DNA of 21,965 nucleotides, from positions 1 through 21,965 of the IMG/VR virus record IMGVR_UViG_3300009428_000085; one strand, 5' to 3'. Source of the DNA: a virus. The notes under the pieces are model-generated. The model had not been told where the DNA came from, searched no databases, and was given only the letters and a program-made list of their open reading frames with translations. Shown piece after piece: positions 15,672-21,800 of this stretch; the stretch's first letter is position 1; each line of letters begins with the position of its first letter. Both the position numbers and the translations under genes were made by a program.

Positions 15672-16107
15672 ACGGAAGTCTGCTAAACGCTATTTAATAG
15701 AAGCGTTAGCAATGCTAGCAATAGGCTCTGTTGCTTTTTTAGCGATTAAGCTTTTTACGCCAAAACCTCCTTACCATAGCGTAACCCGTGTAAACATTGC
15801 ACCTAAGCACAATGACCTTTACATAACCGCTCTTTACGTTGAAGGTACTTGCACATTTAGGACTCTATCGGTTTACGGGGGATTAGATGGAAGAGAAGCA
15901 CCCTTGAAGTGGAAGACACTAGACGGTTATGACAACTTCGATATGGATAGAAAAGCAGGCAAAAGACACTTAGCTCTAAAGGTGGAGTGGAATAAAATTA
16001 GGTACGACACTATCACTGTCGTTACAGAACATTTTTGCCCTTATGGCATTGTTCAAAAAACCTTCTTGTCTGAAGATCTAAATCAGTTTGTCTTTTATAA
16101 CCCATGA
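15661..16107 (+). CDS. Membrane-anchored protein with beta-rich outer domain
   Basis: 148 residues. TTG at 15661 is preferred to the upstream in-frame TTG at 15625, because GGAGG at 15651-15655 lies five bases before it and the overlap with the previous gene shrinks to 11 bp. After a basic start (V-K-R-K-S-A-K-R) there is one membrane span at ~11-32, then a soluble beta-rich domain of ~115 residues with two cysteines (V-E-G-T-C-T-F and E-H-F-C-P-Y-G), which could form a disulphide outside the cytoplasm. N-in, C-out topology is expected. It could be a spanin-like or envelope-associated protein paired with the holin-like neighbour. No family is recognised. Confidence 0.56.
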   Translation: MTVKRKSAKRYLIEALAMLAIGSVAFLAIKLFTPKPPYHSVTRVNIAPKHNDLYITALYVEGTCTFRTLSVYGGLDGREAPLKWKTLDGYDNFDMDRKAGKRHLALKVEWNKIRYDTITVVTEHFCPYGIVQKTFLSEDLNQFVFYNP

Positions 16108-16460
16108 ATGAACTAGAACGCTGCAAAGGTTGGATAGAATCGGCATTAGAGTATGGCGGTGGCACTCATTTATATGAGGATATTGTAAAGTCTATTCTGG
16201 CTGGTGAGATGCAGCTATGGCCTGCTAAGGATTCCTGCCTAGTAACAGAGATAACGGTCTACCCACAGAAAAAGGTTCTGCATGTATTTTTAGGTGGTGG
16301 TGATTTAGAAGAGATTTTAGGTATGCACCCTAGTGTGGTACAATGGGCTATTAGCCAAGGGTGTGAAAGCCTTACCATGACAGGCCGTAAAGGTTGGGTT
16401 AAAGCATTAAAAAATGATGGTTGGCAAGCCCAGCTAGTGTTATTAGAGAAGAGGTTTTAA
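16104..16460 (+). CDS. GNAT-like phage protein
   Basis: 118 residues in an ATGA overlap with the previous gene. The pattern is C-K-G-W-I-E-S-A-L-E-Y-G-G-G-T-H, then the strands E-I-T-V-Y-P-Q-K-K-V-L-H-V-F-L-G-G-G-D-L-E-E-I, then W-A-I-S-Q-G-C-E-S-L-T-M-T-G-R-K-G-W, and finally W-Q-A-Q-L-V-L-L-E-K. This is a widespread small phage protein, and the order of strands and the A-x-x-x-G-C-x-x-L-x-x-x-G-R-x-G-W segment resemble the C-terminal half of GNAT acetyltransferases. The acetyl-CoA loop (R/Q-x-x-G-x-A) is not clear, so activity is doubtful; a structural use of the fold is possible. It stands between membrane proteins and ejection-type proteins. Confidence 0.58.
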   Translation: MNELERCKGWIESALEYGGGTHLYEDIVKSILAGEMQLWPAKDSCLVTEITVYPQKKVLHVFLGGGDLEEILGMHPSVVQWAISQGCESLTMTGRKGWVKALKNDGWQAQLVLLEKRF

Positions 16461-16461
16461 A

Positions 16462-18306
16462 ATGTCCAAAGGCGGCTCAAGTTCACAGACTACTGAGATC
16501 CCAGCATGGTTAGAAAATGCTGCTATTCAGAACATAAACAAAGCAAATGATGTATCTAAGATTGGGTATACGCCTTATTACGGGCCAGACGTTGCCGCGC
16601 TATCACCTATGCAGCAGCAAAGTATGCAGTCTACTGGCAATGCAGCTAGCGCCTTTGGTTTAGCCCCTCAAGGCTTTAATGCGATGGCAGGAATGCCACA
16701 GGCCCAGACATTTGCAAACGGCATGCAAGGCTATTCTAGCGCCCCACTTTATCAAGAGTCTGTTGACCAATTCCAAGCTAATCGCCCTGCTCAGTTCCAA
16801 GCTATGGCTGATATGTTTATAGATCCGTTTACTGGCGCCCCAGCTAAAAACAACTATGCGGCTAGCCCAGAGCAAGTGCAGCAGATGTTTAGTAATGTCG
16901 GTGGTGGCAATGGTGGTGGTATTCCTCCTACTGGTGGTGGCGGTAATAGTAGCGGTAATAACGATGGTGATTATTTTGGCGTTAACAGCCAGTACAATCC
17001 ATACGACTATAGCACCCCAACAGAAGACATTAGCGGTGATGGCGTTGTTGATTATAAAGATATGAGTTTTGGTGAGGCAGGACGTAGACCAATAGGTTTT
17101 GGTGAGAATGTTGGAAACTTTATTGAAAGCATTACACCTATTGGGGCTATCAAACAGGCTGTTGATTATGGTCAAGGGTTAGCAGATGGTTTTACCCCAA
17201 GCCCTAGTAATGGCTTACTGTCACAAACTAGCGGCCCATCTATGACTCAGGCAGAAGCTGTAAATCAAATGAATCAGGCTTCTGATAAGTATGAAGCACA
17301 AAAACTTGCAGATCAGTATGCTTTGTATGGTGCTGGTCAAAATTTTACAGAAGCTAATACTCCTACTAAGCAGGTGGAGACTTTAGCACCAAATCAAGTT
17401 CCAGACTTTTACTTTCCAATGGGCGTGGAAGAAGATTTTAGCCAAGTCGCTCAAACTACTCCTTATGATGCTCCACAGATTAGTAGCCCTGTTAGTAATC
17501 CTGTAATGGAGTCTCAAACCCCAGTTATAAAAGGTTTGCTTGCAGATCAGTTAACTAGCGAGTACGACCTACAGACAGGCTTACAGGATGAACTAGCTCA
17601 AGACGCTAAAGATGCTGCAGATAAAGCCCTTAAAGCAAAGCAAGCTAAGGATGCAGTTCTGGCTAAAGCAAAGGCTAAGAAGATAGCTGATGATAAAGCT
17701 GCTTATGACGCGAAGCAGGCTAAAGCAGCAAAAATAGCTAAAGCAGCAGAAGATAGACAAAAAGATAAGGCCACTACTGGCGGTAAGAGTTCTGGAACGG
17801 TGGGCGATAAAGCTGGCAATGTTATCAAAGACAGTTCTGGTAATGCCGTTAAGTTTGGTAAGAAAAAGAAAGTTAAGCCAAAGAAAATAGTAGAGAATAG
17901 CGGTAAAGGTGGTGGCGGTGGTGGCGGTGGTGGTGGCGGTGGTGATGGTGGATCTGCTGGTTCTAGCGGTGGTGGCACTTACTGCTGTACCAAGATGCGA
18001 GATAACGGCAATTGGACTTCTAACAGGCGCGTATACAAGATGCACAAGTGGCATTTTGAGCAGCCTCAATGGTGGCGTGATGGGTATGACGTTTGGGGTA
18101 AGGTTATTGCCGACAACCTATTGAATAAAGATGGTGAGTTTTCAGCTTCGGTAATGAACGACTTTTATGAGAACCGCGTTAATGGTGGTAAACTTAACCC
18201 TAAAGCAGCACTTGCACATGCTGTTATGTACCCACCTATATTTATGATTGGAATGGTTGCTAAGGTAACTGGCAAGCACATTACTAAAGTAACTATTACA
18301 AGTTAA
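16462..18306 (+). CDS. Internal virion/ejection-type protein with EF-hand-like loop and poly-Gly hinge
   Basis: 614 residues. The N-terminal ~145 residues follow a known pattern of short-tailed phage internal proteins: G-Y-T-P-Y-Y-G-P-D-V-A-A-L-S-P-M-Q, A-S-A-F-G-L-A-P-Q, then F-I-D-P-F-T-G-A-P. A Gly/Asn-rich linker follows (~147-168). At 189-200 the segment D-I-S-G-D-G-V-V-D-Y-K-D fits the EF-hand/dockerin calcium loop (acidic or polar at 1, 3, 5, 9 and 12, Gly at 6). Residues ~380-435 are a long Lys/Ala helix. After twelve glycines at 483-494 comes a compact Trp-rich C-terminal domain: Y-C-C-T-K-M-R-D-N-G-N-W, then V-Y-K-M-H-K-W-H and W-W-R-D-G-Y-D-V-W-G-K. I recall this domain ending other phage proteins. 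It is likely ejected with DNA or packaged near the portal. Confidence 0.7.
   Translation: MSKGGSSSQTTEIPAWLENAAIQNINKANDVSKIGYTPYYGPDVAALSPMQQQSMQSTGNAASAFGLAPQGFNAMAGMPQAQTFANGMQGYSSAPLYQESVDQFQANRPAQFQAMADMFIDPFTGAPAKNNYAASPEQVQQMFSNVGGGNGGGIPPTGGGGNSSGNNDGDYFGVNSQYNPYDYSTPTEDISGDGVVDYKDMSFGEAGRRPIGFGENVGNFIESITPIGAIKQAVDYGQGLADGFTPSPSNGLLSQTSGPSMTQAEAVNQMNQASDKYEAQKLADQYALYGAGQNFTEANTPTKQVETLAPNQVPDFYFPMGVEEDFSQVAQTTPYDAPQISSPVSNPVMESQTPVIKGLLADQLTSEYDLQTGLQDELAQDAKDAADKALKAKQAKDAVLAKAKAKKIADDKAAYDAKQAKAAKIAKAAEDRQKDKATTGGKSSGTVGDKAGNVIKDSSGNAVKFGKKKKVKPKKIVENSGKGGGGGGGGGGGGDGGSAGSSGGGTYCCTKMRDNGNWTSNRRVYKMHKWHFEQPQWWRDGYDVWGKVIADNLLNKDGEFSASVMNDFYENRVNGGKLNPKAALAHAVMYPPIFMIGMVAKVTGKHITKVTITS
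17026..17061 (+). other. Dockerin/EF-hand-like calcium-loop coding segment
   Basis: Codons for residues 189-200 of the 16462 protein read D-I-S-G-D-G-V-V-D-Y-K-D. Position 1 Asp, 3 Ser, 5 Asp, 6 Gly, 8 hydrophobic, 9 Asp and 12 Asp match the canonical 12-residue loop, close to the dockerin consensus D-x-N-x-D-G-x-V-x-x-x-D. Only one loop is seen, without the second dockerin repeat. Confidence 0.5.
17908..17943 (+). repeat. 36-bp GGT/GGC tract coding twelve glycines
   Basis: Twelve Gly codons in a row, alternating GGT and GGC in short runs, then GAT and two more GGT/GGA. It separates a Lys/Ala-rich helix from the Cys-Cys/Trp-rich C-terminal domain and would act as a flexible hinge. Such a tract can change length by slipped-strand replication in steps of three bases without breaking the frame. 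Confidence 0.75.
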
Positions 18307-18317
18307 GGAATAAGATT

Positions 18318-19256
18318 ATGGCAGCACCAGCAGGCGGAAACACACAAGTAACCCCAAGAGGTGGTTTTAGAAATCCTATATCTGAGGAGCATCCTTTTGT
18401 GCCACATGGTGGGGTAGCCCCTAGAGGTGGGAAAGCTATAGACCCAAGAACCTTACCGCCTATGGCTAGTGAAACTAGCATGAGTAATATGCGACGTACA
18501 AATCCAGATCCTGCTGGCCTTAACGTCAACCAAGCAGCAGCGCAACAGATGCAACAGCCTCAAGGCTTTAACGTCAACCAAGCAGCAGCGCAAGGTATTC
18601 AACAGGCACAACAGGGCGCATCTAATGAGATGGGTTATCGACCTATGGCTATTGGCGCACCTAGCCAAGCTAACTTGCAGCAGTACACTAACCCGTATGA
18701 GTCTCAAGTAGTGCAGCAGTCTCTAGGTGATCTAGAGCGTAGTCGCTTAATGACTCAGAACGCAGGTGACGCACAAGCAGGTGCGGCTAATGCCTTTGGT
18801 GGTTCACGGCATGGTATTGCAGCAGCAGAGACTAATCGCGGATTTGCAGATCAGGCAGCACGTACAGCTTCAGGACTGCGAATGGGCGGCTATCAGAACG
18901 CGCAGGACATGGCTAGACAAGCTAGCATGGCTAATCAGCAGGCAGGATTTCAAGGCTCTCAACAGCGTCTAAATGCAGGCTCACAGCTTGGTAACTTGTC
19001 TAACTTAGGCTTTGGCATGGGCCAGACAATTCAAGGTAATATGGATCAGCAGGGCTTGCAGCAGCAGGCAATGAACCAACAGCTAATTAATGACGCTAAG
19101 GGCCAATACGCTGGATATACAAACGCACCAGCTAATAGCTTGCAGTATTTATTGCAGGCAGTAGGGCAGGCTCCAGCAGTAGGAAGCGTTACCAAGTCTA
19201 ATGAAATGGGCTTGATGGATTATTTAAAATTGGGTTCTGGTATTAAGGCATTTTAA
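18318..19256 (+). CDS. Gln/Ala-rich ejection-type protein
   Basis: 312 residues with AAGGA upstream. The N-terminal third is Pro/Gly-rich and holds two 16-residue Gln/Asn/Ala repeats (67-98). From ~120 on it follows a family found in short-tailed phages: Y-T-N-P-Y-E-S-Q-V-V-Q-Q-S-L-G-D-L-E-R-S-R, then G-A-A-N-A-F-G-G-S-R-H-G-I-A-A-A-E-T-N-R, then a long Gln/Ala helical region. The C-terminus has a block A-P-A-N-S-L-Q-Y-L-L-Q-A-V-G-Q and ends L-K-L-G-S-G-I-K-A-F. It is probably an internal virion protein ejected ahead of or with DNA. It lies between two other candidates of that class, as in P22-like gene orders where ejection proteins cluster. Confidence 0.68.
   Translation: MAAPAGGNTQVTPRGGFRNPISEEHPFVPHGGVAPRGGKAIDPRTLPPMASETSMSNMRRTNPDPAGLNVNQAAAQQMQQPQGFNVNQAAAQGIQQAQQGASNEMGYRPMAIGAPSQANLQQYTNPYESQVVQQSLGDLERSRLMTQNAGDAQAGAANAFGGSRHGIAAAETNRGFADQAARTASGLRMGGYQNAQDMARQASMANQQAGFQGSQQRLNAGSQLGNLSNLGFGMGQTIQGNMDQQGLQQQAMNQQLINDAKGQYAGYTNAPANSLQYLLQAVGQAPAVGSVTKSNEMGLMDYLKLGSGIKAF
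18516..18611 (+). repeat. Two tandem 48-bp repeats (16 residues each)
   Basis: GLNVNQAAAQQMQQPQ is followed directly by GFNVNQAAAQGIQQAQ. A 25-base DNA core (18521-18545 and 18569-18593, beginning TAACGTCAACC) is identical between the copies, so the duplication is recent or kept by gene conversion. Confidence 0.8.
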
Positions 19257-19266
19257 GGGGTGTATG

Positions 19267-20346
19267 ATGGGCATTTTAGATTCAATTATGACTCCAATTA
19301 GCGAGGCAAAAGATCCACTAGCAGAGCGTGAGAAGTGGCTTCAAATGAGTCAACTTTTTAATAGCTTCACAATGAATCCTAATGCTAGTCAGGGATATTA
19401 TGATAGCCAACAGAAGGGTATTGACCGTAAACGCGAGTCGATTGCTTTAAGGTCTGGCAATAAGTTAGAGGCTGAGAAGTTAAAGCGTCACACTGCTCAA
19501 GCACTGCAGATATTAGGGGATAAGTACCCTGATATTTCAAAAGACTTGCTTAGTGGGTTTTTAACGCCTCAAGCTGCTGTTACCGAAGCGAGAAACAGAG
19601 GTAAAGGAAAGTTTAAGACAATTACAGGCAGTTCTGCTGAAGCTATGGGACTAGACCCTAATAAGGTTTATAAACTAAATGTGGACACTCAAGAGTTGTC
19701 GGGTATAGGTGGGGGAGGTACTAATATAGATATTAATACTAGCTCTGAGATGGGTACTATACCAACAGGATATGAAGTTTATACAACTGATTCAGGTGCT
19801 AGGGCTTTACGCCCAATACAGGGAGGCCCAGCAGCAGACAAAATAGCAGAGCTTGAAGGTAAGGATGTTGAGGCGCAAGGAACTACAGCAAGAACTGGCG
19901 GTATTGTTTTACAAGACATTGGCAGGCTTAGAAAATTATTATCAAACCAAACTATGGTAAACCCTGTAACAGGCCCGACAGGTAGTTTAGCTGGTAATGT
20001 TCCTGCATCATCTAGGTCTGACGCAGAAACTTTAGCTAACACTATAAAAGGCAACATTGGTTTTGATCGTCTTCAACAAATGCGCAATGAAAGCCCAACA
20101 GGCGGTGCTTTAGGTGCTATAAACGCTCAAGAAATGACGCTATTATCTTCGGTACTAGGTAGTCTTGACTTAAATCAAAGTGAAAGCCAACTGCTAGAAA
20201 ACTTAGGAAGGTTAGAGGTAATTTATACTGAGATTATGCGCAAAGCAAACGCTTACCCTAATGCAGGAGGTTCAATGGCACCTGCTGCACCTAGCGCAAA
20301 TTCAATCATTCCTACATGGAACCCAATAACAGGTAAATTTGAATGA
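19267..20346 (+). CDS. Internal virion-type protein of unknown function
   Basis: 359 residues from ATG 19267, preferred because AAGGGG at 19255-19260 is six bases before it; the ATG at 19264 is only three bases from the SD. The N-terminus M-G-I-L-D-S-I-M-T-P resembles M-G-L-L-D-S-Y-M-D-Q of the 4845 protein. Residues ~15-75 are a charged helix (K-D-P-L-A-E-R-E-K-W-L-Q-M-S-Q-L-F-N-S-F). The middle is Gly/Thr-rich with I-T-G-S-S-A-E-A-M-G-L-D-P-N-K-V-Y, a phrase typical of phage proteins of this position. The C-terminal third is helical (I-G-F-D-R-L-Q-Q-M-R, then A-Q-E-M-T-L-L-S-S-V-L-G-S-L-D), ending in a Pro/Ala tail. No enzyme motif. The stop overlaps the next start (ATGA). Part of the ejection-protein cluster by context. 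Confidence 0.65.
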   Translation: MGILDSIMTPISEAKDPLAEREKWLQMSQLFNSFTMNPNASQGYYDSQQKGIDRKRESIALRSGNKLEAEKLKRHTAQALQILGDKYPDISKDLLSGFLTPQAAVTEARNRGKGKFKTITGSSAEAMGLDPNKVYKLNVDTQELSGIGGGGTNIDINTSSEMGTIPTGYEVYTTDSGARALRPIQGGPAADKIAELEGKDVEAQGTTARTGGIVLQDIGRLRKLLSNQTMVNPVTGPTGSLAGNVPASSRSDAETLANTIKGNIGFDRLQQMRNESPTGGALGAINAQEMTLLSSVLGSLDLNQSESQLLENLGRLEVIYTEIMRKANAYPNAGGSMAPAAPSANSIIPTWNPITGKFE

Positions 20347-21800
20347 TAACTCGCAAAGGGCCAGATGGTAAGTCGTACCAATTTCAAGATGGAACTACAG
20401 ATCAAGAAATGGCTAAGGCGTTTACTAGCATTTATGGTGGCCCTGAAAAAGAAGTAAATATGCCCATAATTGATAAAGTCGCTGGTACTGTTAGGGCTAC
20501 TGGTCAAGGACTCTCTGTAGGAAGTCTTGATGAAGGTATGGGTGCTTTAGGTGCTTTTGCTCAAACATTTATACCAGAGGGTTTAAGCCCTTATAGCACT
20601 GACTACAATCAAAACTTTAATGCAATTCAGCAGGAAGAAAGCAGAAAGGTAAAAGATTTTCGAGATAAAGAGCCTGCTTTAGCTATCGGTGGAGAGCTTG
20701 CTGGAGCTATACTAAGCCCTGCTGCAAAGCTAGCACAAGTAGGTAAGTTTACAAACCTTAAACCTACTGGAAAAGCGGCTTTAGACTCAATGGCTTTTGC
20801 CATGCCTTACGCGTTTATGTCTGCTGATGGTAGTGTACTAGATAGAGGTAAGGATGCTGCCATTGTAGCTATACCTGCATTATTATTTGGGGCTGGTTCA
20901 GAAAAGATGATGAAGGTAGGAAAGGGTGTATTTGACCGATTTTTTAGTAAATCAGTAAAAACACCAACTATAGATAATTTAAAAAAATCAAAGACAGAAG
21001 CGTATAAGTTTGCAGAAATATCTGGTGAAAGATATGCACCAGCAGAAATAGGTAAGATGGTTGGAAATATTGAAAGAAATTTAGTTAAAAATCAAGGTTA
21101 CAGCCAAGACATTGACAAGCAAGCATTAGCCGCATTTAATCTTATTAATAAGCAAAAAGGAAAAGAGTTAACTTTAACTGAGTTAGATAAAGTTAGACAG
21201 GGATTGTGGCAACGCCATACTTCTGGAACTGATGCAGAAAAAACAATTATTAGGGATATGATTGACGAAGTTGATGATGCTATGTTTGCCCATACTGGAT
21301 CCACTGAGGTTATGCAGATTGCCAGACATGCCAATTCATTATTTAAAAAGTCTGAACTACTTGATGAGGCTTTTAAGAAAGCAGAGCTGCAAACTGCTGG
21401 ATCTGGTTCAGGTGGAAATATATTTAATAAGTATAGGCAGGCTGTTACAAATATAATGATTAACCCTAAAAATTCTAGGTGGTTTAGTGTAGAAGAAAAG
21501 AAACAAATGGAAGTTTTTGTACGTGGTGACTTCGGTGTTGATGTGATGAGAAATATAGGCAAGCTATCACCCACTGGTAACGGCCTAATGACTGCTTTAA
21601 ATATTGGCGCTATAGCAACAAACCCAGCAATGGCAGCGGTAACTGTAGCAGGTGCAGGGGCTAAAGCCTTGTCTGATCGTGGTATAATGCGTCAAAAGAA
21701 AGAGCTAGAAGCAATCATACGTGGACAGCCTTTACAACCATATACACAATCAAGGATTACAGCGCCATTAGTGGGCGGTTTATTAGGGCCACAGGAGTAG
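20343..21800 (+). CDS. Internal virion/ejection-type protein with hydrophobic segments
   Basis: 485 residues in an ATGA overlap with the previous gene. The N-terminus G-P-D-G-K-S-Y-Q-F-Q-D-G-T-T-D-Q-E-M-A-K-A-F is a module common at the start of phage internal virion proteins. Then come amphipathic and hydrophobic stretches rich in Ala and Gly: A-L-A-I-G-G-E-L-A-G-A-I-L-S-P-A-A-K-L, A-I-V-A-I-P-A-L-L-F-G-A-G, and near the end A-L-N-I-G-A-I-A-T-N-P-A-M-A-A-V-T-V-A-G-A-G-A. Between them is a long helical region with L-T-L-T-E-L-D-K-V-R-Q-G-L-W-Q-R. Such proteins are thought to insert into the host envelope during DNA ejection. It is immediately followed by the portal gene, supporting a head-interior location. 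There is no lytic transglycosylase motif. Confidence 0.7.
   Translation: MITRKGPDGKSYQFQDGTTDQEMAKAFTSIYGGPEKEVNMPIIDKVAGTVRATGQGLSVGSLDEGMGALGAFAQTFIPEGLSPYSTDYNQNFNAIQQEESRKVKDFRDKEPALAIGGELAGAILSPAAKLAQVGKFTNLKPTGKAALDSMAFAMPYAFMSADGSVLDRGKDAAIVAIPALLFGAGSEKMMKVGKGVFDRFFSKSVKTPTIDNLKKSKTEAYKFAEISGERYAPAEIGKMVGNIERNLVKNQGYSQDIDKQALAAFNLINKQKGKELTLTELDKVRQGLWQRHTSGTDAEKTIIRDMIDEVDDAMFAHTGSTEVMQIARHANSLFKKSELLDEAFKKAELQTAGSGSGGNIFNKYRQAVTNIMINPKNSRWFSVEEKKQMEVFVRGDFGVDVMRNIGKLSPTGNGLMTALNIGAIATNPAMAAVTVAGAGAKALSDRGIMRQKKELEAIIRGQPLQPYTQSRITAPLVGGLLGPQE

Follow-up and report, generated by a model that had tools for sequence, protein, structure and literature searches.

An EF-hand-consensus loop in an exchangeable module of a putative phage ejection protein

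The 21,965-base uncultivated virus record analysed here (the window, meaning this whole stretch of DNA) encodes, within a 614-amino-acid open reading frame (ORF), a 12-residue loop of EF-hand consensus that recurs in related viruses, and comparisons among related phages indicate that this loop sits in an exchangeable cassette that has been swapped repeatedly for unrelated segments. We read the ORF as the N-terminal half of an ejection protein, and the loop as a real EF-hand-type calcium site in one exchangeable module type, which would be ordered by calcium outside the cytoplasm and would be optional rather than a general trigger of ejection; we put the probability of this reading at roughly 0.5. 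The features on which it draws are collected in Table 1.

Table 1. Features of the window, with positions counted from its first base
Feature	Position	Strand	Residues or basis
Large terminase gene	starts 2975
Virion structural protein, PHROG 3287	starts 9562
Acetyltransferase-like gene	16104..16460	+	regularly 5' of genes of this family
ORF, 614 aa: putative N-terminal half of split internal virion (ejection) protein plus variable extension	16462..18306	+
Conserved N-terminal region, constant part of the gene	16462..16878	+	residues 1-139
Gly-codon repeats (GGT/GGC)	16896..16971	+	codons about 145-170; repeat search
Exchangeable module with loop	16963..17292	+	residues 168-277; limits approximate
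EF-hand-consensus loop DISGDGVVDYKD	17026..17061	+	residues 189-200
MSFGEAGRR motif	17062..17088	+	directly 3' of loop
Predicted long Ala/Lys-rich helix	17572..17778	+	residues 371-439; AlphaFold2 full-length, block pLDDT 78-97
Second Gly-codon repeat tract	17904..17955	+	5' of C-terminal segment
C-terminal segment, Cys-Cys and Trp-rich stretch	17980..18303	+	sequence
Putative C-terminal half of split ejection protein	18318..19256	+	phiM5_27 match
Next internal virion (ejection) protein candidate	19264..20346	+	PHROG matches
Internal virion protein candidate	20343..21800	+	PHROG 21712, E 1.5e-23

Genomically, the 614-aa ORF lies inside a block of internal virion protein genes, the placement that marks podovirus ejection proteins, and the gene order around it is that of Sinorhizobium phage phiM5 and of OANV2 (Octadecabacter Antarctic DB virus 2). 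The PHROG 3287 product, encoded well upstream, is one we take to be of the P22 gp10 type. The gene preceding the ORF matches phiM5_26 (34% identity, 97 aa) and holds the position of OANV2 gp16, which is annotated as an acetyltransferase; such an upstream ORF accompanies 76 of the 82 family genes (53 distinct, similar by eye), and it is probably internal virion protein A (IVPA). In the available part of PMC10386132, IVPA is described as homologous to P22 gene 14, and internal virion protein genes of the phages under comparison as hard to place owing to divergence and mosaicism. On the other side, ORF 19264-20346 matches PHROG 24864 (E 1.5e-27) and PHROG 2534, labelled 'released from the phage upon host infection' (E 0.0055). 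The last ORF belongs with PHROG 21712, and the name 'major head protein' given to that family is probably wrong: the OANV2 counterpart and PHROG member, gp20, is distinct from gp26, the gene annotated there as major capsid protein, and sits amid ejection genes.

The sequence-only reading had called the protein 'ejection-type', and this is well supported by its homology to phiM5_27 and PHROG 4287 and by gene order. No PHROG matched the 614-aa ORF, whole or as N-terminus, but PHROG 4287, 'DNA ejection protein', matched 13 of the 20 N-termini in our alignment of relatives (A5; that of the 614-aa ORF is not one of the 13) and 9 of 11 in a separate set (A8), at profile positions 6-85 of 392 in one member; searched against the PDB, the A8 profile returned a single match, at E 0.77. 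The N-terminal family also aligns with residues 9-68 of phiM5_27 (ARV77528.1; hhalign E 7.6e-8; residues 6-65 of the 614-aa ORF), a protein whose GenBank note reads 'detected in phage particle proteome', which gives the ORF a homologue found in a virion. The phiM5 particle proteome is reportedly the subject of a published paper. Downstream, ORF 18318-19256 has no PHROG match of its own, and its residues 114-245 align with residues 135-266 of the same phiM5 protein (E 2e-12). In OANV2, gp17 aligns with the phiM5_27 N-terminus (E 2e-10) and gp18, the counterpart of ORF 18318-19256, matches positions 87-387 of 392 in PHROG 4287, part of which may reflect the S74-type chaperone region at its C-terminus, common to many phage proteins. 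What is a single ejection gene in phiM5 is a pair of genes here and in OANV2; a gene split is the simplest reading of this, probably accompanied by the gain of a long extension on the first half. The protein could instead stay out of the virion altogether, as an assembly or scaffold helper beside the ejection genes. Its largely low-confidence model would suit such a role, as would the fact that we found no proteomics for the split versions (the available portion of the OANV2 paper, PMC9239159, makes no mention of mass spectrometry), but annotation places the unsplit relative in the particle and the neighbouring genes are relatives of ejection proteins, and we consider a helper unlikely.

Structurally, the conserved N-terminal region (mean column identity 76% over the 20 rows of A5) gives way to a variable extension that is largely modelled with little confidence, the long helix at residues 371-439 being a confident exception. 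An AlphaFold2 model of the module (20 sequences) reached a mean pLDDT of 51 and shows only a three-residue turn at the loop end; the full-length model (38 sequences) averaged 54, with 342 of 614 residues below 50, blocks 181-190 and 191-200 at 63 and 74, and both flanks at low confidence. Neither model places a helix of at least four residues beside the loop, so that the flanking helices by which the calcium-loop proposal was to be judged are not predicted, at this low confidence. Foldseek returned no match with the module model, as may be expected at its mean pLDDT. At the far end of the ORF, the C-terminal segment was seen in none of the last 60 residues of 41 listed relatives (one incomplete) and had no match among named phages; by eye it resembles the CV[IV]ATHA...WWGEA C-termini of the distant relatives L144, L147 and L148.

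The loop itself is in frame and encodes D-I-S-G-D-G-V-V-D-Y-K-D, with D, S, D, D and D at positions 1, 3, 5, 9 and 12, G at 6 and V at 8, that is, the 12 residues, five oxygen ligands and glycine of an EF-hand loop; the earlier claim of a fit to the calcium-loop consensus holds at all key positions. Across six frames of the window, the pattern D.[DNS].[DNS]G.[ILVMF]...[DE] matches here and nowhere else. At least one match arose in 0.37% of 20,000 shuffles of the whole protein, and when only residues 141-260 were shuffled the figure was 0.30%, so the loop is real, and the concern that an Asp/Gly-rich linker had produced it by chance is unlikely to apply.

The description 'dockerin-like' fared less evenly, standing as regards the loop consensus and failing as regards family models. 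Type I dockerins consist of two loop-helix repeats, and the 614-aa ORF has a single loop. Pfam returned nothing for the whole protein at E up to 1 and nothing, EF-hand and dockerin included, for its module at E up to 10, leaving it short of the Dockerin_1 cut-off and of the curated EF-hand models; among 20 module rows from relatives there were one Dockerin_1 match (E 0.011), one EF-hand_5 match (E 0.1) and one EF-hand_1 match (E 0.13), which may come from one and the same row. Searches for the module in bacterial and archaeal genomes gave 23 pattern matches, none confirmed by tblastn, and a search of named phages gave one match, at chance level (E 0.7). Against the PDB the module profile had no significant match, the best being 4z0n, a periplasmic binding protein (E 0.47). 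Proteins of this kind have a calcium loop of the galactose-binding-protein type, and the alignment covers our loop and the FGE.G that follows it, which raises the idea of a calcium loop succeeded by a strand instead of a helix; with the match at chance level, however, and no strand after the loop in the AlphaFold2 models, we hold this to be very improbable.

Among relatives, the ligand positions proved conserved. An ORF-based scan gave 53 viral loci (several mutual copies), 16 of them with the strict loop, and a module-based scan gave 26 loci, mostly on the same contigs; after removal of duplicates, 20 modules were aligned (A3). The loop is intact in 16 of these, all with D at positions 1, 5, 9 and 12 and with a residue that can serve as ligand, S (14) or N (2), at position 3. 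It is broken or lost in the other four, L002 (NISGEKDRVADYRD), L073 and L074 (both NISGADGVIDYRD) and L018 (largely deleted), and all four retain MSFGExGRR. One of the 16 intact modules, L075, has MSMGEAGRV in place of that motif.

Evolutionarily, the loop is under purifying selection. We calculated pN/pS over 15 intact rows, leaving out L070 because it duplicates L011. The loop has a value of 0.20 (0.14 at ligand positions 1, 3, 5, 7, 9 and 12; 0.26 at the remaining ones), MSFGExGRR, the nine residues after it, has 0.10, the 5' side of the loop 0.29, and two stretches from residue 210 onward 0.60 and 0.73. The low values in loop and motif alike show that selection acts on both together, a pattern compatible with metal binding as well as with a contact surface. 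It is quite possible that the conserved stretch DGxxDYRDMSFGExGRR is a linear motif that binds another virion protein, metal-free and only incidentally resembling an EF-hand: the motif is more constrained than the loop and outlives it in every broken row, helices are not predicted alongside, and the module profile finds no significant calcium-binding structure. Such a motif, however, would not need EF-hand positions 1, 3, 5, 6, 9 and 12 to be kept in 16 of 20 rows, with S to N, ligand for ligand, as the sole change at position 3; nor does it fit L075, which keeps the loop although the motif is altered, or the EF-hand- and dockerin-type modules found elsewhere in the gene family. The proposal of a calcium loop thereby stands in part, with ligand conservation, purifying selection and those separate modules in two gene variants on its side, and the lack of flanking helices in low-confidence models and the four loops lost while the motif stays on the other; calcium binding by the loop is plausible.

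The two gene variants just mentioned are L124 (721 aa), with two loops (DVNKDGVISMSD and DINNDGSLDIFD), and L103 (559 aa), with one (DMNRDGTIDISD), each loop lying 3' of a common segment ending DMA[YF]. A three-row profile of these modules, run against the PDB with E up to 10 allowed, matched 65 sequences (best E 2e-4), and among the 60 matches listed most are calcium-binding EF-hand or dockerin/cellulosome proteins; five designed TIM barrels match a different part of the profile. Pfam Dockerin_1 scored E 0.0024 for L124 and E 0.017 for L103, both under the cut-off, and the EF-hand-type part of L124 had no match in named phages. Homology with the module of the 614-aa ORF was considered and found no support (14 loop columns align, E 0.0063, probability 6%), and because the modules align over the loop only, EF-type loops have probably entered the family gene at least twice. 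A frequent alternative module (in L103, L123, L020, L046 and others) carries a G[DS]DGxxYTVGxGxGQVD-like stretch, a related form of which occurs twice in L103.

The same profile retrieved L153 (E 9e-10), in which a DMAYDVNGDG loop lies in a coiled-coil-like protein; a relative of this protein, gp29 of Roseobacter phage CRP-235, is without the loop. Directly 5' of the L153 protein is a gene of the HlyC family of RTX toxin acyltransferases (L153:2665-3096; PF02794, E 1e-18); in CRP-235, the gene before the relative (L224:6486-6908) is annotated as a toxin-activating lysine-acyltransferase. Kinship of ORF 16104-16460 with the HlyC-family gene, which would have pointed to a scheme of RTX-toxin-like acylation plus calcium, found no support (hhalign E 0.49, probability 0.1%).

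Most members of the family do without the loop, which is present in 13 of 82 distinct complete genes. By ORF, it occurs in 15 of 82 in the family, whereas of the 307 remaining plus-strand ORFs at the same loci that reach 150 aa one has it, a comparison that is no clean enrichment test, since some loci were retrieved for carrying the module and the sole non-family ORF (that of L153) was itself retrieved by the EF-hand search. A scan with the N-terminus, its query rows partly from loop-bearing genes, found the loop in 18 of 80 loci (15 of 69 distinct ORFs) among the best 80 of 542 relatives.

In this family, near-identical N-termini are joined to unrelated middles. The 82 distinct complete genes kept from 182 copies form 167 pairs in which an alignment covering the N-terminus reaches 85% DNA identity or more (57 of the 82 genes contribute, and the pairs are not independent). 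Similarity reaches the gene end in 25 pairs and stops within the gene in 142; the break falls at codons 120-169 in 117 of those 142, and 124 of them regain similarity further downstream. On the upstream side, all 129 testable pairs remain alike without interruption for 350 nt or more, and where one gene has the loop and the other has none, the break lies at codons 120-169 in 43 of 43. Mapped on a quick tree of 96 N-terminal rows, built from few columns, the module label, which includes broken-loop modules, needs 11 changes, at least three of them forced by the starred branches; shuffled labels average 17.7, with 0 of 500 as low as 11, and the label is therefore partly inherited too. In the 614-aa ORF the break zone coincides with the first Gly-codon repeats, which we suggest are crossover sites. 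The extension C-termini (for example in L001, L005, L006 and L045) show a few recurrent tails, such as GYSFGL, GYGGISGGGGR, TDYGYF and DPSGRF, which by eye combine with differing middles. A bolder and rather doubtful extrapolation is that the extension is a dedicated slot, bounded by Gly-codon recombination sites, in which marine podoviruses swap unrelated modules, repeatedly acquired calcium-binding EF-hand-type ones among them, and that the slot faces the host envelope, calcium from the environment switching the module into an ordered state once it is out of the cytoplasm.

Mechanistically, the optional calcium site that we favour would work as follows. In the host cytoplasm, where calcium is scarce, the protein would be packaged in a flexible apo form; after lysis, seawater calcium would enter the capsid, capsids being generally permeable to small ions, and the loop and the DYRDMSFGExGRR segment would become ordered; during infection the protein would, judging by its homologues, exit with the other ejection proteins. 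Calcium would then stabilise one optional module and would not act as the general trigger of ejection. Folding triggered by calcium on exit, as the sequence-only reading had proposed, is less likely on two counts: seawater calcium would have loaded the capsid before ejection, and most of the relatives examined have no loop. For the latter reason calcium binding by such a loop cannot be indispensable to ejection in the family, and it looks like an optional extra rather than the core of the protein's function.

Ejection proteins form the path by which the DNA of short-tailed phages crosses the envelope, and to our knowledge the roles of their divergent parts are poorly known. A constant anchor joined to a sharply bounded exchangeable segment points to a part under changing selection, a pattern that stands even if calcium binding is not confirmed; if it is confirmed, this would be an unusual case of a metal-responsive module inside a marine phage head. 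The relatives, some bearing a calcium-type loop and others lacking one, form a natural set for a direct test of calcium's role. No ejection protein described as having an EF-hand came up among the papers listed by our literature search, most subscription papers lying outside its scope; PMC9509320 reportedly deals with the ejection proteins and tail of phage SU10.

The loop and its gene recall several known systems. Like the calcium loop of galactose/glucose-binding protein, it is followed by FGExG, with the weak 4z0n match noted above, but the protein and context are different. With type I dockerins and EF-hand modules it shares the loop consensus, and the L124 and L103 profile matches solved chains of this kind, but the loop of the 614-aa ORF is single and unpaired, with no predicted flanking helix and no Pfam match. 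The gene resembles phiM5 gene 27 and PHROG 4287 in its N-terminal motif, its middle region and its position after an acetyltransferase-like gene; phiM5_27, however, is one unsplit 468-aa protein with an S74 chaperone domain and, by eye, no EF-hand loop, whereas our locus shows a pair of genes with a long variable extension. The titre of OANV2 dropped to one tenth when magnesium was absent and by a factor of 100 when EDTA was present (PMC9239159), which says nothing on the loop, OANV2 being without the module. Its gp17 is 217 aa long and Gly-rich 3' of the N-terminal region, but it is 57.5% identical to the 614-aa ORF over residues 6-125, and OANV2 gp16-gp20 share both the two-gene arrangement and the gene order found here.
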